From assembly GCA_024644085.1 (NCBI GenBank), contig JAHELS010000002.1, positions 1 to 64,000 on the forward strand: a DNA stretch of 64,000 nucleotides. Direction: 5' to 3'. The position numbers and the translations under genes are program-made. Below, piece after piece: positions 2,570 to 60,371 of the stretch (position 1 is its first letter; every line of letters begins with the position of its first letter). This DNA is from Rhodopirellula sp. Its GTDB lineage: Bacteria > Planctomycetota > Planctomycetia > Pirellulales > Pirellulaceae. Under the pieces are notes generated by a model. That model was not told where the DNA came from, made no database searches, and saw only the letters and a program-made list of their open reading frames with translations.

Positions 2570-5500
2570 GCAGACAGAACATCCCTGGGAGCGGCGCAGA
2601 TGCTAACGCTACCCCGAGCGCACTTATAGTGTTCTGGTTCGGCAGCGTGTGGTTGATGAGCCTGTGTTGCTCCGCGATGGCGGCTGACGAGCCGGTTGAT
2701 TTTCGCAAGCAGATCGCGCCGATCTTTGAGCAGCATTGCGTTCGCTGTCATTCGCCGGGGAACAACAAAGGCGATATGTCGCTGGCAACTTTCGATGACC
2801 TGAAGTCGAACGACTACGTCATCGCGGGGGATCCGGACGACAGCTACCTGATTGAATTGGTCACATCGCAGGATGGCGAGCCGCCGGCCATGCCGAAAGA
2901 GGCGAAACCGCTCTCCGACACGGAGGTGGACTTGCTGCGGCAATGGATTGGCCAGGGGGCAAAGTGGCCCGATGGCGTTGTCGTCAAAGAGAAGGCAAAG
3001 GCGGATGCATCGTGGTGGGCCTATCAACCGCTGAAAGTCGCTCGGCACTCTGGTTCGCGTTCCAAGCAATCACCCGACTCCGAGAGTCAGGCTAAGACCA
3101 TCGACGAATTCATTTGGACGAAACTCGCCGAGCAAAACCTGAAGCCAAGTCCGTGTGCCGATCGACGGGCACTCATTCGACGTTTGTCATTCGACCTCCA
3201 CGGGTTGCCGCCGACACCGGAAGCAGTCGAAGCGTTTGTCGAAGACGCTGATCCGAAGGCTTATGAAAAGCTCGTCGATCGGATGTTGGATTCTCCGCAT
3301 TACGGCGAACGCTTTGCCCGACACTGGCTGGATATTGCTCACTACGCCGACACGCACGGCTTTGAACGTGACAAACGGCGAGATAATGCGTGGCGTTATC
3401 GCGACTATGTGATCCGCGCTTTGAATGAAGACAAACCGTACGACCGATTTCTGCAGGAACAAATCGCCGGCGACGTCCTCTGGCCGGACAACGAACAGGC
3501 CGTGATAGCGACTGGGTTTCTCTCGGCTGGTCCTTGGGACTTTGTCGGGCAAGTGGAGACAAGAAGCCCCGTGCTTCGCCGGTCTGCGAGGTCACTCGAT
3601 CTGGACGATATGGCAACACAGGTCATGACCGCCACGATGGCGATGACCATCAATTGCGCAAGGTGTCACGACCACAAGCTCGATCCGATCTCCCAGCGGG
3701 AGTATTACCAGTTGCGAACCGTGTTTGCGGGAGTCAAACGTGAAGATCGAGTGGTCAGTGATGCGGCTCTCAAACAGTACGAGGCACAGAAACAGGAACT
3801 GATCGCTCGACGTAACAGACTCGATTTTGAGAAAGGGCGGCTTGAAGGCGAGGGACTGAATCTTGCGGACATTGTTGGCGGCGGAAACGGACTTGGCACG
3901 GGGACGTATCGCAATGCCATCGACCCACGCAACGCCAAGGTGCAAACCCGAGACTTCGGCAACCTTGGCAATGTGGTGACAAACACATTTTCGTCGTCCG
4001 CGTTCGAGTTCGTCGATGGTGTGTTCGTACCGGACGGAGACAAAGGTAAGGCAGAGATTCCGGTCAGTTCGACGGGCGTTACCGTCACGGGGTTGCCAAA
4101 GACCTCAGGCAACGCGTGGGACATGATTCGCAATGGCCCGGTCGCCAGTCAGCATTCTCCTGAACTGGACGGAATTGACTTCACAAGAGACGGCCACAGT
4201 CTGTTGGGACTGCACGCAAATGCCGGGATCACGTTTGATCTGGCGGCGATGCGCAAAGTAGCTCGACTCTCTGAGTCGAATTCTGAAACGCCCGACTCGG
4301 AGAGTCAGGCTACGTTGCGTTTCACGGCCAAACTCGGGTACTTCGGCGCGGCGGGAAACAACTTTGCCGACGCGTGGGTGTTCGTGGATGGTCGCAAAGT
4401 CGCCGAGTTCCCAAAGCTGCGACGTGCTGATGGTTTACAAAAGATTGATGTTGAACTGCCCGCGTCGGCTCGCTTTCTCACGCTCGTTTCGACCGATGGC
4501 GGCAACGGCTACGGCATGGATCAGATTGGCTTTGGCGATCCGCGAGTGAAACTGGCGTCTCCACCAACGCTAACGAGCGAAGCACGCAAGCGACTCGCTG
4601 AAATCAGAACTCAGCGCGAGCAGATTGAGAAAGATCTTGAGACGCTCGGCCCGCCGCCGCGTTTCTATGGAGTCGTCGCGGAGAAGTCCGTTCCGGAAGT
4701 GAAACTGCTGACGCGCGGCAATCCGGAATCTCCGAGCGGTGACGCGCTGACTCCCGCAGCAATCTCGTCGTTGGCGATGCTCGATTCCGGATTGGGAACG
4801 TTAGAAACCAGTGAAGGAGAACGGCGAGCGGGATTGGCCCGCTGGATTACGCATCCGGACAACCCGCTCGTCCGTCGAGTCATCGTCAATCGTCTGTGGC
4901 AATGGCACTTTGGTACCGGGTTGGTCAATACGCCTAGCGATTTCGGATACGGCGGGGGTCGGCCTTCGCATCCGGAGTTGCTCGACTGGCTCGCGGATGA
5001 ACTGGCGAAGCGGAACTGGTCGCTCAAGGCCATGCATCGGCTGATCGTCACGAGCGAGACTTACAAGCAGGTGAGTAGCGGTGGCTTCCAGCCGCCGGGC
5101 AGTAGCGGAAGTCGTCAAGACTTTCGGCCACATACTGAAAACACTGCCGAAACTCTTGACGAGTTCCGCTACGACAACGCCGCCTCAAAGATCGACGCCG
5201 ATAACCGCCTGCTCTGGCGACAGAATCCACGCCGCATCGAAGCCGAGGCGATTCGCGATTCGGTGTTGTTCGTCAGCGGCAAGCTGAATCCCAAACGCGG
5301 CGGTCCTGGTTTCGAAGATTTCAAATATCAGGATGCCTACGCCCCGATTTATACCTACGTGACTGCCGACGAGCCGGCACTTTGGCGGCGCAGCATTTAT
5401 CGCTACATCGTTCGCACCACACCCGACCGCTTTCTAACAACGCTCGATTGTCCCGATCCAGCCAACCTGACTCCGAAGAGGCTTACCACCACGACGCCTT

Positions 5501-5746: not shown

Positions 5747-7246
5747 ATGGCCATGCCCCAACGTAGCGAAAGTCGTCAAGACTTTCGGCCGCGCACCACG
5801 CCGAAACTCTTGACGAGTGTCGCTACCTCGCGACGACAGTTTCTACAAACCGCCGGCGGCGGATTTGGCGGGCTCGCGCTGACGGCGATGCTGAGCGGCG
5901 AAGGGCGTGCGCAGGACTCTTATGAATCACGGGCGCATCATGCCCCGAAAGCTCGGCGCGTTATCCAGATTTTCTGTCCCGGAGGAATGAGCCAGGTTGA
6001 CACCTACGATCACAAGCCGGAACTCGAAAAGCGAAACGGAACGCCGTTTGATCCCGACGGCAAACTGCAGTTCTTCGCTTCCAAGCCCGGCAGCTGTCGC
6101 GGTAGTCACTGGAAGTTCCGTCAGCACGGGCAGTCCGGGTTGTGGATGAGCGATCTGTTTCCCAAGCTCGCCACTTGCGTCGACGACATGGCGTTCATTT
6201 ACTCGATGCACAGCAAGACCGCGTTGCACGGCCCGGCGTGCTTCATGATGAACACCGGATTCACACTGCCCGGTTTCCCAAGCATGGGATCGTGGGTGAC
6301 GTATGGACTTGGCAGCGAAGCCGATGACCTGCCAGCGTTTGTCGTGTTGCCGGACCCGCGAGGACTTCCGCCGGGCGGCATCATCAACTGGGGAGCCGGC
6401 TTTCTACCCGCTGAGCATCAGGCTACAACGCTTGATACGACGAATCCGAAACAACCCATCGCCGACCTGTTTCCACCAGATGATGTTTCGGAAGTCACGC
6501 CGGCAGCGGATCAGGCGGGTCTGGACTTTCTGCAGAAGCTCAACCGTCTGCATCGGGAAACTCGCAGTGGCGACAGTGAACTCGACGCCCGCATCAAGGC
6601 GTATGAAATGGCGGCGCGTCTGCAGCTCAGCGCGCCCGAAGTGACCGACCTGAGCAAAGAGACCGCCGCGACAAGACAACTCTACAACATCGACGACGCC
6701 GAAATCGGCCCGTTCGGCCGACAGTGTTTACTGGCCAGGCGACTCGTACAGCGCGGCGTGCGTTTCGTGCAGATCTATTGTGGAGCCGAGAACACGACGG
6801 CCAAGAAGATTCGCCCGAACTGGGACAGTCATGAAGATCTGACTCGCGATCACGGCTATTGGGGAGCTGTGCTGGATACCGGCGCTTCGGCACTGCTCAA
6901 AGACTTGAAGCAACGGGGCATGCTCGACGACACGCTGGTCATCTGCACGACGGAGTTTGGTCGTCAGCCGGCCGCTCAGGGCGGCGGGGGAAAGGGCCGA
7001 GACCACAATGCGGGCGCTTTCACGGCATGGCTTGCCGGCGGCGGTATCAAAGGCGGAGTCGGTTACGGGGCAACCGATGAGCTCGGGTACAAGGCCGTCG
7101 AGAATCCAAGCTACAGCTACGACTTGCACGCAACAGCACTGCATCTGCTGGGCGTCGATCACACGCGGCTGACGTTCTATCACAATGGAATCCAGCGACG
7201 GCTGACGGATGTTCACGGGCATTTAGTCAGGGAGATTCTTGCGTGA
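5747..7246 (+). CDS. DUF1501 domain protein with twin-arginine-like leader (SRRQFLQTAGGGFGGLALTAML); start could be 5723, 5747 or 5753
   Basis: Homologous to the four other DUF1501 ORFs in the window; C-terminal [17 protein letters not shown]. Confidence 0.88.
   Translation: MAMPQRSESRQDFRPRTTPKLLTSVATSRRQFLQTAGGGFGGLALTAMLSGEGRAQDSYESRAHHAPKARRVIQIFCPGGMSQVDTYDHKPELEKRNGTPFDPDGKLQFFASKPGSCRGSHWKFRQHGQSGLWMSDLFPKLATCVDDMAFIYSMHSKTALHGPACFMMNTGFTLPGFPSMGSWVTYGLGSEADDLPAFVVLPDPRGLPPGGIINWGAGFLPAEHQATTLDTTNPKQPIADLFPPDDVSEVTPAADQAGLDFLQKLNRLHRETRSGDSELDARIKAYEMAARLQLSAPEVTDLSKETAATRQLYNIDDAEIGPFGRQCLLARRLVQRGVRFVQIYCGAENTTAKKIRPNWDSHEDLTRDHGYWGAVLDTGASALLKDLKQRGMLDDTLVICTTEFGRQPAAQGGGGKGRDHNAGAFTAWLAGGGIKGGVGYGATDELGYKAVENPSYSYDLHATALHLLGVDHTRLTFYHNGIQRRLTDVHGHLVREILA
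5763..5826. repeat. Family B palindromic element in the N-terminal coding region of the DUF1501 gene
   Basis: GTAGCGAAAGTCGTCAAGACTTTCGGC ... GCCGAAACTCTTGACGAGTGTCGCTAC. Confidence 0.88.
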
Positions 7247-10035: not shown

Positions 10036-10088
10036 GGAAACCCGACGCGTAAGCGAGGGACGGTCCCTCGCTTACGCGTCGGGTTACC
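10036..10088. repeat. Family A palindromic element (CCCGACGCGTAAGCGAGGGAC-G-GTCCCTCGCTTACGCGTCGGG)
   Basis: 21-bp perfect stem with 1-nt centre. Confidence 0.95.
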
Positions 10089-11593: not shown

Positions 11594-14280
11594 GTGATTT
11601 AAGGTTCTCAAGTAGTGGAATTCCCCAGAACTTCCCAGTAAAGGATTCCGACAAGATGCATCACCCATCCCAGGGATTTTTGGCGAAATCCACTAGAACC
11701 AGTTGCAAAAACCTGTTTTTGGTAGTGGAACTCGTCAAGAGTTTCGGTTTTTGTCGAGTGCCGAAAGTCTTGACGACTTCCGCTACAGGTTTTGCCACTG
11801 GTTCTACGTGTTTTGTCGTGTTCGTGTTCCTATCCGGGGCGGTGTCCGTTTCGGCGGCGGAACCGTTTGAAGCCTTTCTCAAAAAGCACTGCGTCCGCTG
11901 TCATGGTCCTCAGAAGGAGGAAGGCGATATTCGGATCGACCGGTTGTCGCGTGATTTCAAGGCGGGAGTGGATTCGCACCACTGGGCAGAGGCGCTCGAT
12001 AAGCTCAACAGCGGCGAGATGCCTCCGGAAAATGAACCGCAGCCGACTCAGGACGAGATCGCGGCGTTCGTCGCCAAACTCGACGCGCTGTTGAAGGAAG
12101 GGCGAGCGGCGAGGATGGCGGCGCGGCCGGCCGTATCGCACTATCGGCTCAGTCGGAAGGAATATCAGAATACCGTCTACGATCTGCTTGGCGTGCGCTA
12201 CGATCCGGCCAAACCGGGAGAGTTGAACGAGGACACGTTGTGGCACGGGTATGAGCGAATCGGGTCGCAGCTTTCACTTTCGCCGTCGCATGTAGATCGC
12301 TACTACCGCGCGGCGGACATCGTGCTCGATCGGGCGTTTCCCGCCACGTCTGGCGACGCGCGCAAAGTCCGCAAGACGGCGGCGGAGTTGGCTTATCGCG
12401 GCGGGGAAAAGCAGCAGGAGGCGCTTGACCGGTTCGGCATCAAGCGGCCACTGCGTTACCTCCTCTTCCCCGGTCGAGTACAGCAAGCACTTTCCTCCAA
12501 CTGGTTTGGAAAGACGGGCCCCGAGCATAGTGGTCTTTACAAACTCCGTCTGCAGGCCAGCGGAATCCGTCCGCCCGGCGGTCAGCCAGCCCACTTGAGT
12601 ATTGGCATGAAGACCAGTGAGGAGAACGTCGATGGGCTTGTCGAATTTGACATCACAGCACCGGAAGACAGTCCGCAGGTTTATGAGTTCGAGGTGTTTC
12701 TGGAGATGCCGGCGCAGCTGCATTTCGCCGTGGTGGCCACCGATGTGATCGACAGAAGAGGCGGCGCTGCCTTCCGCAATGCGTTCGGACGCGGTTACGT
12801 GTTCACGCACAGCAGCGAGACGCTTCTGCTGAACCCCAATGCTCCGCAGATGTTCGATGACAAAGGCAACGGCATCTTCTCGACGGTGCTCCTCGATTGG
12901 ATCGAGTGGGAAGGGCCACTGGTCACAGAGGCGGAAAAGTCGCGGCGTGATGGCGTGCTGCCGCCCGATGACGCGCCGCTCGAGGTGGTTGCCGAGCACT
13001 TGCAACGCTTCGCCCAGCGCGCTTGGCGACGACCGGTGGAAAAGGAAGAGCTGAAGGACTATCTGGAAACTTACCGCGTCGAGCGCGAGGCGGGTGAGAA
13101 GGCGACCGATGCTTATCGACTCACGCTGCAGAGCGTGCTGACGTCCAGAAACTTCATCTATCTGGTTGAGGGAGAACCCGATGCCCGCGAACGTCTGACT
13201 GACTGGGAACTCGCTTCGCGGCTGTCGTATTTCCTCTGGAGTTCGATGCCCGACGACGAACTTCTTGCGGCGGCACGCAGTGGTGCCCTTTGTACGACGG
13301 ACTTCCAGTCCGTCGAAACCCAGACGGACAAGATGTCCGTCGTACTGGCGCAGCAAGTGGACCGGATGTTGACGGATAGCCGGATCAACCGCTTCATCGA
13401 CGACTTCTCGCGGCAGTGGCTGCAGCTGCATCGCGTGGGCATGTTCCCGCCGGACAAGAAGCTCTACCCCACCTACGACGACTGGCTGGAGACGAGCATG
13501 CGCGAGGAACCGGTCGAGTACTTCCGCGAGATGCTCGCAAAGAACCTGCCCATCGAGGCATTCCTCGATTCCGACTGGACCATGGCCAACGCTCGGCTCT
13601 GCGATTTCTACGGACTGCCGGAGCCCCCGTCCAAACCAGAAGCAGCGACGGGCGGCTTCCAACGCGTCGCGCTCAAGCCCGAGGACCATCGCGGCGGTCT
13701 GCTCACGATGGGCGCGGTGCTCGGATTGACCTCGGACGGAACGCGCCACCGTCCGGTGCATCGCGGCGTCTGGGTCAGCGAAGCGATCTTCAACCGGACA
13801 CCGCCGTCACCTCCGGCGAATGTGGATCCGATCGAACCGATTCCGCCCAAGGGCACCAAGATCACCATCCGTCAGCGAATTGAAGCTCACGCGAAGAACG
13901 CGAGTTGCGCTGCCTGCCATCGCAACATCGATCCATTGGGGCTGGCGTTTGACCAATACGATGCCATCGGCCAGTGGCGTACCCGCGAGCGCGTTCCCGC
14001 GGGTGTCGGCGAAGATCCGACGGTTGATGCATCTGGTGTGATGCCGGACGGCCGACCGTTCACCGATTCGGATCAATTCAAACAACTGCTACTCGAAGAC
14101 CGTGACGAGTTTGCACGAGCCTTCATCGAACACCTTTGCACTTATGCACTTCGTCGCGTGCTGACCGTCGATGACCGGGACGGCGTCCAGGCGATTGTCG
14201 ACGAAGCAAAGAAACACCAATACCGGGTCAGGGACATCGTGCGTGCCGTGGCCCTCTCCGAACTCGTAGGAAAACGCTAA
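11590..14280 (+). CDS. DUF1587/DUF1592/DUF1588/DUF1585-type planctomycete cytochrome; true start uncertain (11590 GTG or 11656 ATG)
   Basis: [79 protein letters not shown]. Confidence 0.9.
11695..11805. repeat. Extended family B element, core 11722-11786 with outer arms AGAACCAGTTGCAAAAACCTG / CAGGTTTTGCCACTGGTTCT
   Basis: Two nested inverted repeats read directly; located at the 5' coding end of the cytochrome gene. Confidence 0.82.
13292..13344. repeat. Family C palindromic element in frame (peptide [17 protein letters not shown])
   Basis: GTACGACGGACTTCCAGTCCGTC ... GACGGACAAGATGTCCGTCGTAC. Confidence 0.88.
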
Positions 14281-14292
14281 CTCAGAATCTTT

Positions 14293-14366
14293 GGTAACCC
14301 GACGCGTAAGCGAGGGACACATCGGAAACGCCTTCCCTCGATCCCTCGCTTACGCATCGGGTTACC
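14293..14366. repeat. Family A palindromic element in the cytochrome/DUF1552 spacer
   Basis: GGTAACCCGACGCGTAAGCGAGGGA ... TCCCTCGCTTACGCATCGGGTTACC. Confidence 0.93.
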
Positions 14367-15749: not shown

Positions 15750-17206
15750 GAGTGCTGACAAAGGTAACCCGAAGCGTGAGGGCTTGTCGGTTGAATGGCG
15801 CCACAGGTAGCGGAAGTCGTCAAGACTTTCGGCCGAAACTCTTGACGAGTTCCGCTACAGCCCGAAACGTAAGCGAGGGATTCAAGACTGGTGGCTTCGT
15901 CGAGTCTCATCCCTCGCTGACGCTTCGGGTTTCCAGGTCTCTGCGGTGTCTCGCTGCGCTGTGCGTCGGCGTTTCCTTGTTCTTCTTCGGCGCTTCCGTC
16001 AACGCCGACGACGAGCCGTTCCGCCCCAAGCCAGGAAATTTTCCGCCTCTCGAAAAGGCACACTCGTACCGGGGCGAACTTGTCTTCGTGGATCATGCCA
16101 ACCGTCGCGGCAGCATCCGGGTGCAGGGGGCGGGCAAGTATTTCCGAAATGCTCCGCACCCCTTTGCCATGCTCCCGTACGGGATCGTTCGTTATCACGG
16201 GGCGCCAGCGGACCTCCGAGACATCCCCCTTGGCACAGTGCTGCACGTCCGGGCCTTTCTCGCTCCAGACCCAAAGCTTTCCTCCGTTCCTGTGCTGCCA
16301 GTCAACAACAAAGAGAAGAACTCTGGCTACAGTGGCGCTGGCATTTACCCCGCCGAAAACCACGTGCTTCTCCTTGAAGACGAACCCAGCCACTGTCAGC
16401 GCACGGGCAAAGTCTGGAAGCTGAAGGAAGTGGACCTCAAGAATAACCAGGGGATGATCGTCGCCAGCCGAGAACCAGAGGAAGGTGGAGACACAGAAGC
16501 TGAGGAGGAAACGCTGACCTTCGACGCCGCCATCCGCATCTGGCGTGGCCGCGAGCGCCTCGGAGTCGAGGATCTGATCGCCGAAGGCATCTGGCCTGCC
16601 AGCGGAAAGAAATCCCTCGACGGCCAGGCGGTTCTACTCGGGATTACCTGGAAGCCCACGCCAGACGGTGTATTCACTCGCTTTCATATCTCGGACATCT
16701 GGTTGGACGACGCTGCCATTCAGCGTGCCGCCCAAAACCAGATTGAAACGCACAAAGCTTTCATCCGCAGCCGCTGGATGCCCGCCTGGATCGACGCCGT
16801 CGAGTACGGCAAGTTCGGCCACGCCACCGTAACCGCAACTTTGTTCGGCGGCATGGACGAATCGCTCTATGCCGATTTCAAGAAGGATGTCTCCGCCATG
16901 ATGAATGGCGTCGAAAACACCCTGAAGCACGCGGGCGGCAACTATGGTCCCGAACACATGGCCTCGCGCGGGGGGATTCTCGAGGTGACAAAGACAGACG
17001 GAAAGGTGCCCCTGGGTAGCAGTGGTATCCAGATCCGATTTGAGACCGACCTCATTACCGAAGGCATCCGCCCCGGCCGGGTCGTCCGCGTCCGCCCGGG
17101 CAACGGCAACTGGCCCCATGTCAGACTTCCCCGCGAAGAATTCATCGGCGACGGCAACAACCCCGAAGCCCGTTTCCCGACCCCGGCCATCTTCCCCAAA
17201 TACTGA
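15746..17206 (+). CDS. Secreted protein of unknown function, paralogue of the next gene; start uncertain because the 5' end is made of palindromic repeats
   Basis: Signal-peptide-like [27 protein letters not shown]; long alignment by eye with 17231-18589. Confidence 0.8.
15773..15933. repeat. Composite: family A arms flanking a complete family B element (15807-15858) followed by a second complete family A element (15861-15933)
   Basis: GGTAACCCGAAGCGTGAGGG, then GTAGCGGAAGTCGTCAAGACTTTCGGCCGAAACTCTTGACGAGTTCCGCTAC, then CCCGAAACGTAAGCGAGGGA ... TCCCTCGCTGACGCTTCGGG. Confidence 0.9.
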
Positions 17207-22367: not shown

Positions 22368-22442
22368 GGTAACCCGAAGAGTGAGCGAGGGACCGAGAAC
22401 AGAATGAACCGGGAGCATCCCTCGCTCACGCTTCGGGTTACC
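22368..22442. repeat. Family A palindromic element in the PSD1/DUF1501 spacer
   Basis: GGTAACCCGAAGAGTGAGCGAGGGA ... TCCCTCGCTCACGCTTCGGGTTACC. Confidence 0.93.
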
Positions 22443-30935: not shown

Positions 30936-32221
30936 AACCTCGCACACTCACTCGTCGTCGTTTTCTTCGCGGAGCCGGAGTCGCGCTCGCACTGCCTTTG
31001 CTGGAGAGTGCGCGGCCCGCGTTCGCCAGGGACACCGAGTCGCCCACCCCGCGGCGGATGCTGTTGATCTCGAACAACCTGGGCGTCCTGCCGAAACAGT
31101 TCTTTCCGGAAACACCCGGACGTGACTACGAACTTTCACCCTACCTGCGGGACCTGGCCGAGTTCCGGAATGACTTCACGGTGATCAGCGGCCTGTCACA
31201 TCCGGATGTGGACGGTGGACACAGCACGGAGAACTGTTTTCTTACGGCGGCTCGCGGACCGACCAAGAGCGGCTTTCGCAACACGATCTCGCTCGATCAA
31301 TTCGCCGCTCTGCGATTGGGGCCGGTGACGCGGTTTCCTGCGTTCAATCTGGGCGTGAACATCGACAAGGCGAACCGTAGTCTCTCCTGGACGCGCGACG
31401 GCGTGCTCTTGCCCGCTGAAGACAGTGCTTCGGCTCTGTTCCGTATAATGTTCGTTCAGGGCGATCCGTCAGCGGTTAAGCGGCAGTTGCACAAGCTCGA
31501 TGAGCGGGCCAGCATCCTTGACACGCTGCTGGACGACACGCGTCAGGTCAGGCGAGCACTCGGTCGCGATGATCAATCGCGTCTCGACCAGTACCTCACT
31601 TCCGTGCGCGAGATCGAGCAGCGTCTGGATGTGGCGCGTCAATGGGAATTGCGGCCGAAGCCGACCACCGATCAACAACCGCCCCGCGACATTCGGGACC
31701 AGAAGCAGTTCTTCGAGAAGTTCGACCTGATGTTGTCGATGGCTCGCCTCGCGTTCGAATCCGACTCAACACGCATCATCACACTGATGGTCGATGCCTT
31801 CGCGACTCCTCCCTTCAAACTGCACCCCGATCAGAACACCACCGACGGCTACCACAACCTGAGCCACCACGGTCAATCCGAGTCAAAAGTGCAGCAACTG
31901 ATTGATGCCGACCATCAGCAGCTGTCGCTGCTGAACAAACTGTTCTCACAGCTTGCCGAGGTTCGTGAAGGCGAAGATCGTCTGCTGGACCGCACGATGA
32001 TCCTGTTCGGCAGCAACATGGGGGACGCCAACACCCACGACAACACGAACCTGCCCATCCTGCTGGCCGGCGGCGGCCTCAAGCACGGTCAGCACTTGGC
32101 CTTCCGCCGCGATCACAACCAGCCGCTCTGCAACCTCTATGTGACCATGCTCCAACACCTCGGCATCGACGCAGACACTTTCGGCAGCAGCGCCGGAACT
32201 TTGAACGAGATTGCCTCATGA
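30926..32221 (+). CDS. DUF1552 domain protein, twin-arginine leader (TRRRFLRGAGVALALPLLES)
   Basis: ISGLSHPDVDGGHSTENCFLTAARG; LSHHGQSESKVQQLIDADH; close to the other DUF1552 ORFs. Confidence 0.92.
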   Translation: MPMKPRTLTRRRFLRGAGVALALPLLESARPAFARDTESPTPRRMLLISNNLGVLPKQFFPETPGRDYELSPYLRDLAEFRNDFTVISGLSHPDVDGGHSTENCFLTAARGPTKSGFRNTISLDQFAALRLGPVTRFPAFNLGVNIDKANRSLSWTRDGVLLPAEDSASALFRIMFVQGDPSAVKRQLHKLDERASILDTLLDDTRQVRRALGRDDQSRLDQYLTSVREIEQRLDVARQWELRPKPTTDQQPPRDIRDQKQFFEKFDLMLSMARLAFESDSTRIITLMVDAFATPPFKLHPDQNTTDGYHNLSHHGQSESKVQQLIDADHQQLSLLNKLFSQLAEVREGEDRLLDRTMILFGSNMGDANTHDNTNLPILLAGGGLKHGQHLAFRRDHNQPLCNLYVTMLQHLGIDADTFGSSAGTLNEIAS

Positions 32222-32336
32222 GACACATGAAGCCCCACACAAAAGAAGTGCCCGGGTGATGAATGGAAATGGCATTTCGACGTGCCCGTTTTCGATGTTT
32301 TCATTTCGCCTATTTCCCATCTTCGCGGCTGTCCTC

Positions 32337-35300
32337 ATGAAACCTACTCTCAAACTCATCCACCCTGCCGCTCGCAGACTCACGCAATACGCGATTGGCA
32401 CACTGATTGTGCTATTGTCGCTGGCCAGCATAGCGGCAGCCGAAGATTGGCCCACCTGGCGACATGACGCCGGCCGTACGAATATCTCATCCGAGAAGAT
32501 TCCCGCTCCGCTGCGTCTGCAGTGGAAGCGAAAACTTCCGCCGGTGACACCCGCTTTCCGCAAGTCCCGGCTTCAGTTTGACCAGGGTTACGAGCCCATT
32601 GTTCTGGGCGATACCATGTTTGTGGCGGTACCGCATGTCGATGCGGTTGTCGCCTATGCTGTCGAGACCGGCAAAGAGAAGTGGCGGTTCTACACAGCCG
32701 GTCCCGTGCGTCTGGCACCGGTTGCGTGGCGCGACAGGCTCTTCTTCGGATCGGACGACGGACATCTGTACTGTTTGAATGCGACCGACGGTGAGCTGCA
32801 ATGGAAGTTTCGTGCCGTCCCTTCAGCAAGGAAAATCCTGGGCAATGGCCGGTTGATTTCCGTCTGGCCAGTCCGCGGGGGACCGGTGTTGGCCGACGAG
32901 ACCGTCTACTTCGCTGCCGGAGTCTGGCCGTTGGAAGGCGTCTTTGTCTACGCCCTCGACGCCCGGTCGGGCAAGGTCGAATGGGTCAACGATCGGTGCG
33001 GAACGTTGTATGGCAAGCAACCGCACGTGGGTGCCGAAGCGTTGGGAGGACTCTCCCCGCAAGGATACTTGTTGGTTAATGGCGATAAGCTGCTCGTCCC
33101 CTGTGGTGCGGCGCGACCGGCCACGTTCGATCGCCACAGCGGTAAACTACTCGACTTCACACTCCCGTCCGAAGGAACCGTTCCTGGCGGTTGGTTCATG
33201 CGGTTGGACCCGGAACTTGCCCGCGATATTCGACGCGGCAAGGTTGAGTTCGACAGTGTCGTCAATCGCGATCTGCATGAAGGTGGACTGCGCACGGGCA
33301 AAGGAGTCGCCGGTGCGCGGACACAGGTTACGCTTGGCGGCGCTCGGTTGAAATACGCGGAAGGAGCGAAGGGAGTAGACGGCGATATTCACAGTGTCGT
33401 CGCCGCCAACGGCCGACTGTTCGTCACGACCCGCGACGGAATGATTTATTGCTTCGGCGATACCGAAGTTTCACCGACCTTTCACCCGGCACAACCTGCT
33501 CACAACAGTCCGTTGAAAAACGGTGTTCGTGGTAACCCGACGCGTGAGCGAGGGACGAGAACCAGCGAAAACGGTGGATTCAAATCCCTCGCTGACGCGT
33601 CGGGTTTTCAAAGGCCTCCTAAGCGGGACGCCGACAAGGTGCTGGCGTCAACCGTCGCCCACCTGCGCACGCTAACCCGCGTTCGCGACGGCTACGCGCT
33701 CGTGCTCGGCACGCGCGATGGCCGGTTGGCGGACCAATTGGCTGCCGAGACAAATCTCAACGTCATTGCGTTAGCCCCCGTTGAATCCGACGCCGACACA
33801 TTACGGCGACGTATCCTTGACCCCTCCGCGCCAGCGGGACGACTGTCGATCGTGGCGGGCGAGCTTGAGAAAGTCGCGTTTCCGCAGTATCTGGCAGATC
33901 TGATCGTGGCAGAAGATTGGAGCGCGACCCGGCTCAACACAGGCGCTGACTACCTGCTGACATTGTATGAACGACTCAAGCCGTACGGGGGCGTCGCCTG
34001 TCTCTCCGTAGAATCGACGCGCGACGAGGAAATTCGCGAGTGGCTCCGCGCGGCCGGGCATAGCGAAGCCCGGGTTGAACGCCACGGCGACCTCCTGCTC
34101 ATCCGCCGGGCGGGCGCGTTGCCCGGCGCTGTCGATTACACAAACGACTGGAGCTCGCCCGACGCCCGCGTCCGGGCTCCTTTGGGGATCTTGTGGTTCG
34201 ACGATTCCCTGGCGCACTTCAAGCGCGCCCCGCAACCGACGATCGTGGGCGGCGTCATGATTTCGCAAGACAAGGATTGGCAGGGCAATGTCGATAAGAT
34301 GGGTCCCGTCAACCATCTCCATCGAGACGGGACCGGGCGGTTCCGCTTGCTCAATGCATCCTTCATGGATGTCTATACCGGCCGCGTCCTGTCGCGTGAC
34401 GAAACCGAGTCGCGGTTAGACCAAGTACCCAAAACGCCGCGCGCCGACTTTCGCCCGCCGTATCAATTTCGTCCGCCGTATGTCGAAAAGCATTTTCAGG
34501 ACCTGGAGTCCCGCGGCGAGAAGCCGAAGTCCTATCCGTTCCTGAGGCAGGCTGACAAAGGCCAAATGACGAATCCGCTGACCGGTGTTGTCGAGCCGCG
34601 ATGCTACGTCAAGAGTTACGGTTGCGACGGCGGTGTGGACTACGGTCACTTGATTACGATGCGGTCGGCGACGCCCGCTTTCTACGACAAACGTATTGAA
34701 AGCGGCACGATTAATATTGCCGGCCCACGCTCCGGTTGCACGAATAGCGTCATCCCGGCGGGCGGTGTCTTGAACATGCCGTATTTCTACGAGGGCTGCA
34801 CTTGCAGCTACCCGTTGCCCACCGGCGCCGCGCTGATCAGCATGCCGCAGACCTTCGAACAATGGACTGCCTGGGGCCAGACTGACCGGCGCCAGGGCAC
34901 CGCCAAACCAATCGTGCGCATCGGCGTCAACCTGGGAGCGCCCGGCGATCGGATGACCCACGGCGGAACTCTGTTTCTCGACTACCCCAGCGTCGGCGGA
35001 CCTTCGCCCGAGATAAAACTTCAGACGCAACCGGAGACCCCCGACTACTTTTATCACCACTCCCTGTTTATCCAGGCGGGGAAAGGCTGGCCTTGGGTCT
35101 GTGCCTCCGGCGTACAAGACATCAAATCATTGCGTTTGACAGAACTGAAATCCGGGACGTTTACCGTGCGGCTCTACTTTGTCGAACCAAAACACACTGC
35201 GGCGGGCGCCCGCGTGTTCGATGTCGCACTTCAGGGAAAACCTGTGCTGTCGAATTTCGATATCTTCGTCGCGGCCCAAGGCAAGATGAAGTGCCTGGTC

Positions 35301-35486
35301 AAAGAATTCACCGGTGTCCAACTCGATGGCGACTGCAACCTAACCTTCACCACGCACCAAGGCCAGAGCCTGCTCAGCGGGATCGAACTCGTATCGACGG
35401 GTCTGCCGCTAGATCCGTTGCCGGAAAATGGGTCGACTGCGGCGATCGTCGCAGCGTCGTGGTACGAAAGGCACCCAACTCGATGA
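32337..35486 (+). CDS. PQQ-like beta-propeller protein with methyltransferase-like segment and malectin-like C-terminus
   Basis: Signal peptide from ATG 32337; EDWPTWRHDAGRTN, VVAYAVETGKEKWRFYTAGPVRLAPVAWRDRLFFGSDDGHLYCLNATDGELQWKF; YALVLGTRDGRLADQLA; FTVRLYFVEPKHTAAGARVFDVALQGK. Confidence 0.85.
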   Translation: MKPTLKLIHPAARRLTQYAIGTLIVLLSLASIAAAEDWPTWRHDAGRTNISSEKIPAPLRLQWKRKLPPVTPAFRKSRLQFDQGYEPIVLGDTMFVAVPHVDAVVAYAVETGKEKWRFYTAGPVRLAPVAWRDRLFFGSDDGHLYCLNATDGELQWKFRAVPSARKILGNGRLISVWPVRGGPVLADETVYFAAGVWPLEGVFVYALDARSGKVEWVNDRCGTLYGKQPHVGAEALGGLSPQGYLLVNGDKLLVPCGAARPATFDRHSGKLLDFTLPSEGTVPGGWFMRLDPELARDIRRGKVEFDSVVNRDLHEGGLRTGKGVAGARTQVTLGGARLKYAEGAKGVDGDIHSVVAANGRLFVTTRDGMIYCFGDTEVSPTFHPAQPAHNSPLKNGVRGNPTRERGTRTSENGGFKSLADASGFQRPPKRDADKVLASTVAHLRTLTRVRDGYALVLGTRDGRLADQLAAETNLNVIALAPVESDADTLRRRILDPSAPAGRLSIVAGELEKVAFPQYLADLIVAEDWSATRLNTGADYLLTLYERLKPYGGVACLSVESTRDEEIREWLRAAGHSEARVERHGDLLLIRRAGALPGAVDYTNDWSSPDARVRAPLGILWFDDSLAHFKRAPQPTIVGGVMISQDKDWQGNVDKMGPVNHLHRDGTGRFRLLNASFMDVYTGRVLSRDETESRLDQVPKTPRADFRPPYQFRPPYVEKHFQDLESRGEKPKSYPFLRQADKGQMTNPLTGVVEPRCYVKSYGCDGGVDYGHLITMRSATPAFYDKRIESGTINIAGPRSGCTNSVIPAGGVLNMPYFYEGCTCSYPLPTGAALISMPQTFEQWTAWGQTDRRQGTAKPIVRIGVNLGAPGDRMTHGGTLFLDYPSVGGPSPEIKLQTQPETPDYFYHHSLFIQAGKGWPWVCASGVQDIKSLRLTELKSGTFTVRLYFVEPKHTAAGARVFDVALQGKPVLSNFDIFVAAQGKMKCLVKEFTGVQLDGDCNLTFTTHQGQSLLSGIELVSTGLPLDPLPENGSTAAIVAASWYERHPTR
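33531..33608. repeat. Family A palindromic element in frame (peptide [27 protein letters not shown])
   Basis: GGTAACCCGACGCGTGAGCGAGGGA ... TCCCTCGCTGACGCGTCGGGTTTTC; 78 bp, i.e. 26 codons. Confidence 0.93.
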
Positions 35487-47881: not shown

Positions 47882-48113
47882 GGTGTGTCAGGTCTTACTT
47901 TTCGGGCAACGGCAGTGAGCCGTGACGCGTGACAGGATTTTGCACGGATCGGCGCAACCCGCTGCCATTAACAAGGTAACCCGACGCGTTAGCGAGGGAC
48001 CTATCCCTTGCTCACGCTGCGGGTTACCAACATCCATGCAAAATCCTGATTAGCGGCCGGGCCCGGTGCCTTACGGCCCGCGGCTCACACCGAAAAATAT
48101 GACCTGACACACC
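47882..48113. mobile_element. Nested multi-arm palindromic element with GGTGTGTCAGGTC terminal inverted repeats and an internal family A element
   Basis: Outer arms 47882-47905/48090-48113 (22/24), middle arms 47933-47949/48032-48048 (16/17), inner family A 47975-48028. Confidence 0.85.
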
Positions 48114-50707: not shown

Positions 50708-50773
50708 GTAGCGGAACTCGTCAAAAGTTTCGGGCTCGCTGGAATTGCCGAAAGTCTTGACGGCTTCCGCTAC
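50708..50773. repeat. Family B palindromic element
   Basis: GTAGCGGAACTCGTCAAAAGTTTCGGGC ... GCCGAAAGTCTTGACGGCTTCCGCTAC. Confidence 0.87.
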
Positions 50774-55477: not shown

Positions 55478-55543
55478 GTAGCGGAAGTCGTAAAGACTTT
55501 CGGCAATTCCAGCGACGCCGAAACTCTTGACGAGTTCCGCTTC
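55478..55543. repeat. Family B palindromic element in the divergent intergenic region
   Basis: GTAGCGGAAGTCGTAAAGACTTTCGGC ... GCCGAAACTCTTGACGAGTTCCGCTTC. Confidence 0.85.
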
Positions 55544-60284: not shown

Positions 60285-60371
60285 GGTAACCCGACGCGTA
60301 AGCGAGGGACAATCCTCGTCAAACACCCGCGTTCAGAGCGTCGGAATCCCTCGCTTACGCTTCGGGTTACC
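60285..60371. repeat. Family A palindromic element in the cytochrome/DUF1552 spacer
   Basis: GGTAACCCGACGCGTAAGCGAGGGA ... TCCCTCGCTTACGCTTCGGGTTACC. Confidence 0.94.

Follow-up and report, generated by a model that had tools for sequence, protein, structure and literature searches.

An in-frame REPIN-like palindromic doublet in a variable linker of a planctomycete PQQ-propeller protein

A gene for a PQQ/BamB-like propeller protein of Rhodopirellula sp. contains, in its reading frame, a 78-bp copy of a palindromic repeat that we call Family A. Our explanation, which we hold with high but not complete confidence, is that a REPIN-like doublet, apparently nested in another insert, has been tolerated in the linker of a pre-existing protein. 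Family A would be a miniature palindromic element of the REPIN kind, made of two bulged-palindrome repeats in inverted orientation. One copy would have landed where the protein has a variable linker, between its PQQ propeller and its middle segment, and there apparently in an older small palindromic insert. The total insertion of 117 bp is a multiple of three and stop-free in the host frame; therefore the host gene would have stayed intact, and its protein would have gained 39 residues. A single-strand transposase (HUH/Y1, RAYT-like), acting on the hairpin in trans, would spread the family, gene-breaking insertions would be removed by selection, and the encoded peptide would presumably have no adaptive role.

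Results

The element and its host gene

The DNA analyzed here (the window) is a stretch of 64,000 nt from Rhodopirellula sp. (assembly GCA_024644085.1, contig JAHELS010000002.1, positions 1 to 64,000, forward strand). The features at the insertion are:

32337 to 35486, plus strand: host gene for a protein of secreted type, with a PQQ/BamB-like propeller, a weakly methyltransferase-like middle and a C-terminal malectin domain (ORF, Pfam, homologue alignment)
33531 to 33608, plus strand: REPIN-like doublet (Family A), inverted arms whose cores are separated by a 31-nt spacer, 26 codons
33534 to 33554, plus strand: left arm AACCCGACGCGTGAGCGAGGG, imperfect palindrome CCC-GA-CGC-GTGA-GCG-A-GGG (arm match)
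33586 to 33606, minus strand: right arm AACCCGACGCGTCAGCGAGGG (arm match)

The host ORF spans 32211-35486 (1091 aa) with a mechanical start at the TTG at 32211. By inspection the ATG at 32337, which is followed by a signal-peptide-like segment, is the likely start of the gene. The ORF reads through 33531-33608 in frame and without a stop. Both arms match AACCCGACGCGTNAGCGAGGG with 0 mismatches, and the element as a whole folds into a near-perfect hairpin (-59.9 kcal/mol, z -7.9), which none of 200 shuffles equaled. The arms, the hairpin and the open frame thus confirm the original prediction of a 78-bp Family A element in frame in this ORF. The peptide given there was correct in that 78 bp make 26 codons; its quoted 27th residue, Q, is encoded by the next codon, outside the element. 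Judging from the frame and from the selection on the gene (see below), the host is probably translated through the element, and the 39 extra residues are probably unstructured.

A Pfam search identified a propeller of the PQQ_2/BamB type (E 5.7e-24) and the malectin domain at the C-terminus. For the middle segment the best PDB match was a putative SAM-dependent methyltransferase (E 0.08); Methyltransf_25 was detected in this segment of one homologue (E 0.0075), and Toprim_3 was an about equally good match for other homologues. Hence, the predicted position of the element between a PQQ-like and a methyltransferase-like part holds for the propeller, while the middle segment may be methyltransferase-like, an assignment that is weakly supported.

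Orthologues have an empty site

A search of 60 related genomes yielded four same-genus orthologues (in G020, G009, G013 and G005) with an empty site exactly at this position. Their junction reads ...CTGTCCGCA|AGCCAAAT..., where the window has ...CTGCTCACA[117 bp]AGCGGGAC... The alignment defines the net insertion, which extends beyond the 78-bp element:

33504 to 33620 (ends uncertain by a few bases), plus strand: net insertion compared with the same-genus orthologues (117 bp, 39 codons), in frame and without a stop (orthologue alignment)

No clear target-site duplication was found at the 117-bp insertion. In the same-genus orthologues (81-83% identity), and also in homologues at ~45% identity, both halves of the protein lie in one ORF without the element; in the former they are contiguous. 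The architecture is present in all of the 11 aligned homologues, in which the linker is a variable, poorly conserved stretch. Therefore the domains already formed one protein when the element came in. The original prediction had offered as one option that the element marks a domain-fusion joint, with the repeat as the recombination site between a propeller gene and a methyltransferase-like gene. The element does sit between these two parts. Since the architecture predates it, this option is refuted by the empty sites and by the intact element-free ORFs, and the element almost certainly does not mark a fusion joint.

The orthologue from G016 (L156, G016:C20) has a linker that is expanded at the same site by a short tandem repeat (CCAGTCGCTGATACGG units) beside masked bases. 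This suggests that the linker of the host protein may accommodate changes in length.

We next consider selection on the two halves. The dN/dS ratios (Nei-Gojobori, window versus the long orthologues of G020, G009 and G013; the G005 comparison is a short fragment) are 0.12-0.16 on both sides of the insertion, and similar values are obtained between orthologues that are free of the element. Both halves of the host gene are under similar purifying selection, a comparison with little power if the insertion is very recent; indeed, there may not yet have been time for selection to act on it. Because the ratios are similar on both sides, the host gene appears to work as one unit. The other option of the original prediction, that an insertion at a domain linker is tolerated, is supported by the four empty sites, the variable linker and the purifying selection on both halves. 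The comparison of orthologues across the linker, which had been proposed as a check, gave clean empty sites with both halves kept.

It is also conceivable that the element is kept for an RNA hairpin that acts on the mRNA by pausing, processing or stabilising, as has been proposed for some extragenic REPs. The hairpin is very stable, and most copies of the family are found outside ORFs and may be transcribed there. Still, we consider such a role improbable: the element is absent from the orthologues, one copy in one genome does not indicate conservation, and searches at the element revealed neither a terminator pattern nor an above-threshold Rfam family (two sub-threshold miRNA matches are generic hairpins).

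The insertion is composite

The 117 bp contain more than the tolerated doublet:

33506 to 33532, plus strand: left flank within the insertion, small hairpin CAGTCCGTTGAAAAACGGTGTTCGTGG, matching the terminal part of another palindromic repeat

The sequence CAGTCCGTTGAAAAACGgtgTTCGTGG of the left flank agrees with the first ~25 bases of this different palindromic repeat. G039 has 18 copies of the repeat and G045 has 5, and the typical form there is CAGTCCGTTGAAAAACGCCTTCGTGGCGTTTTTCAAAC. The matching TTTTCAAA occurs on the far (right) side of the Family A element. Within the assembly of the window the flank motif has no second copy and is present only at this insertion. As the 117 bp consist of the element plus a flank that matches another palindromic repeat, the insert looks nested. 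The simplest reading, which is likely but not proven, is that the REPIN-like doublet entered an older small palindromic insert (CAGTCCGTTGAAAAACG).

Family A is a widespread repeat of inverted pairs

The window holds 13 Family A arm cores versus 0.03 expected by chance. They form seven pairs, one of which is in the host ORF; the other six are, by inspection, apparently between genes:

10036 to 10088, no strand assigned: Family A pair, apparently between genes
14293 to 14366, no strand assigned: Family A pair, apparently between genes
15859 to 15933, no strand assigned: Family A pair with two mismatches in the left core, abutting the GTAG-type pair at 15807-15858
22368 to 22442, no strand assigned: Family A pair, apparently between genes
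47975 to 48029, no strand assigned: Family A pair with one degenerate arm, apparently between genes
60285 to 60371, no strand assigned: Family A pair, apparently between genes

Family A is spread through the Pirellulales and related planctomycetes. It is present in 37 of the 60 related planctomycete genomes, with a maximal load of 298 forward and 285 reverse arms in one of them, and in at least 120 stretches of public genome DNA, most of which have planctomycete titles. The single arm is a bulged palindrome, CCC-GA-CGC-GTNA-GCG-A-GGG (-5.5 kcal/mol, z ~ -2), and adjacent arms within 200 bp are mostly inverted (+- orientation in 67 of 78 pairs). Column frequencies from 218 arms give an outer end of approximately AT(C/G)(G/A)(T/C)AACCC, in which AACCC is conserved and the preceding bases are variable, often GT. 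A terminal GTAG or CGTC is absent from these 218 arms.

The arms are near invariant. The spacers have a median similarity of 0.85 within Stieleria tagensis, 0.68 within Neorhodopirellula pilleata and 0.66 within one MAG, and a lower similarity of 0.47-0.56 between these three genomes. Since spacers are alike within a species and different between species, the doublet, spacer included, seems to be copied as a whole.

In-frame copies in other genes

The interiors of ORFs (≥200 aa) hold only 18 of 124 Family A copies versus 95 expected, and copies that are clearly in frame in coding genes are fewer still. Among the at least 120 public loci, in-frame copies were found in a DUF1595/1592/1588/1585 protein (two doublets), a kinase-STAND-FGE protein (one site with three arms), a FAD_binding_5/CO_deh_flav_C protein (one site) and a FecR protein (one site). 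In a 3-keto-disaccharide hydrolase-type protein the frame is apparently broken at the element.

This recurrence in unrelated proteins could mean that Family A is adapted to life in coding sequence, where it would supply proteins with useful linker peptides; this has been argued for Rickettsia palindromic elements. Such an adaptation is very improbable in view of the strong avoidance of ORFs. Furthermore, doublets are open in 42% of their six frames versus 48% in composition-matched shuffles; there is no bias to open frames, and we reject the idea of an element adapted to be open in all frames. The pattern fits random insertion with loss of the damaging copies, which would make the in-frame copies survivors.

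A second repeat family and the clustering on contigs

The window also contains a second family:

5102-5172, 5763-5826, 11722-11786, 15807-15858, 50708-50773 and 55478-55543: Family B, GTAGCGGAANTCGTCAAGANTTTCGG, inverted pairs (repeat matches)

Family B has the terminal GTAG tag and the palindromic core of described GTAG REPs. The interval 15807-15933 holds a GTAG-type pair and, immediately adjoining it, a Family A pair, a further clustering of palindromic elements.

All Family A copies found in the 6.9-Mb draft are on four contigs (C187, C188, C207 and C279); the window is C187:1-64000, and this contig holds the seven pairs. The subtype of the GTAG repeat is mostly GTAGCGGAA on C187 and C188 and mostly GTAGCGAAA elsewhere in the assembly. 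In other members of the genus Family A also clusters on single contigs (G009:C355 and G005:C288) at similar offsets. The clustering in the draft and the uneven GTAG subtypes suggest either a mis-binned relative or an acquired region; a comparison of composition and UvrA identity did not separate the two.

The draft is fragmented, with 468 contigs and a contamination of 5.5, and the two repeat families are concentrated on the contig of the window and a few others. The element could therefore have been joined into the gene in silico, by an artefact of assembly or binning. We regard this as extremely unlikely, because the flanks are collinear with the orthologues on both sides, the reading frame is preserved exactly across the insert, and the assembly contains no second copy of the complete insertion sequence. 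Wrong binning would alter the assignment to a species but not the insertion itself.

A candidate transposase for Family A

Y1_Tnp occurs in all 22 genomes with at least 7 arms versus 18 of the 38 others (Fisher p ~1e-5, not corrected for relatedness). A search for Y1/RAYT genes with the element beside them placed Family A near only 2 of the 65 Y1 loci examined. A home-made, crude HMM built from 11 Y1 ORFs detected no Y1 gene among the element-centred loci. The GTAG-type Family B was near none of the 65 Y1 loci. Because the Y1 genes are physically unlinked to the element, a Y1/RAYT-type transposase is no more than a candidate mobiliser of Family A.

Discussion

REPINs are REP doublets that form hairpins (Bertels and Rainey 2011, PMC3116915). 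Family A resembles them as an inverted pair of short bulged palindromes with conserved arms and a less conserved spacer; the whole doublet is a predicted hairpin and the copies are mostly extragenic. It differs from them in sequence and in phylum, and a RAYT gene linked to the family did not clearly emerge from the 65 Y1 loci. Because of its palindromic arms, its genome-specific spacers and its avoidance of ORFs, Family A behaves like a REPIN.

REPs inside genes have been described before. Di Nocera et al. 2013 (PMC3733652) reported GTAG- and CGTC-tagged REPs and their dimers wholly inside ORFs of many bacteria. More than half of these intragenic inserts encode 20-30 aa, and they were proposed to be neutral because they are located in flexible linkers or loops; the REP-bearing species include R. 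baltica (Planctomycetes), and intragenic REPs were found in O. terrae (Verrucomicrobia, PVC) (PMC3733652). Family A shares with these repeats the palindromes and dimers inside ORFs and the proposed neutrality in linkers, but its terminal tetranucleotide is neither GTAG nor CGTC. The same study notes Rickettsia palindromic elements (RPE) for their intragenic copies (PMC3733652). These too are hairpin-forming DNA that has entered the genes of unrelated proteins in frame; Family A differs in its strong depletion in ORFs, and it is set apart from RPE by description and not by sequence. A full-text literature search with the arm letters, which covered the running text of openly available papers, found no description of Family A among the papers listed, all of them unrelated.

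Since intragenic REPs and dimers were published in 2013 (PMC3733652), the phenomenon of in-frame intragenic REPs is already known, including its explanation by linkers. The present case is a well-documented example, and its less usual twist is the probable nesting in another palindromic insert. It provides a clean before-and-after view of a REP-type doublet that entered a coding gene, with empty sites, a length divisible by three and comparable selection on the two sides, and a widespread planctomycete repeat family is now described. For annotation, peptides such as SLADASG and a longer one of 21 residues are, when they occur in planctomycete proteins, probably translated repeats and not motifs. 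A more general idea, which we consider unlikely, is that planctomycete REPIN-like elements prefer to nest in older, small intragenic palindromic inserts and so may lengthen linkers stepwise. If such preferential nesting were true, repeats would drive one route by which protein length evolves in Planctomycetes.
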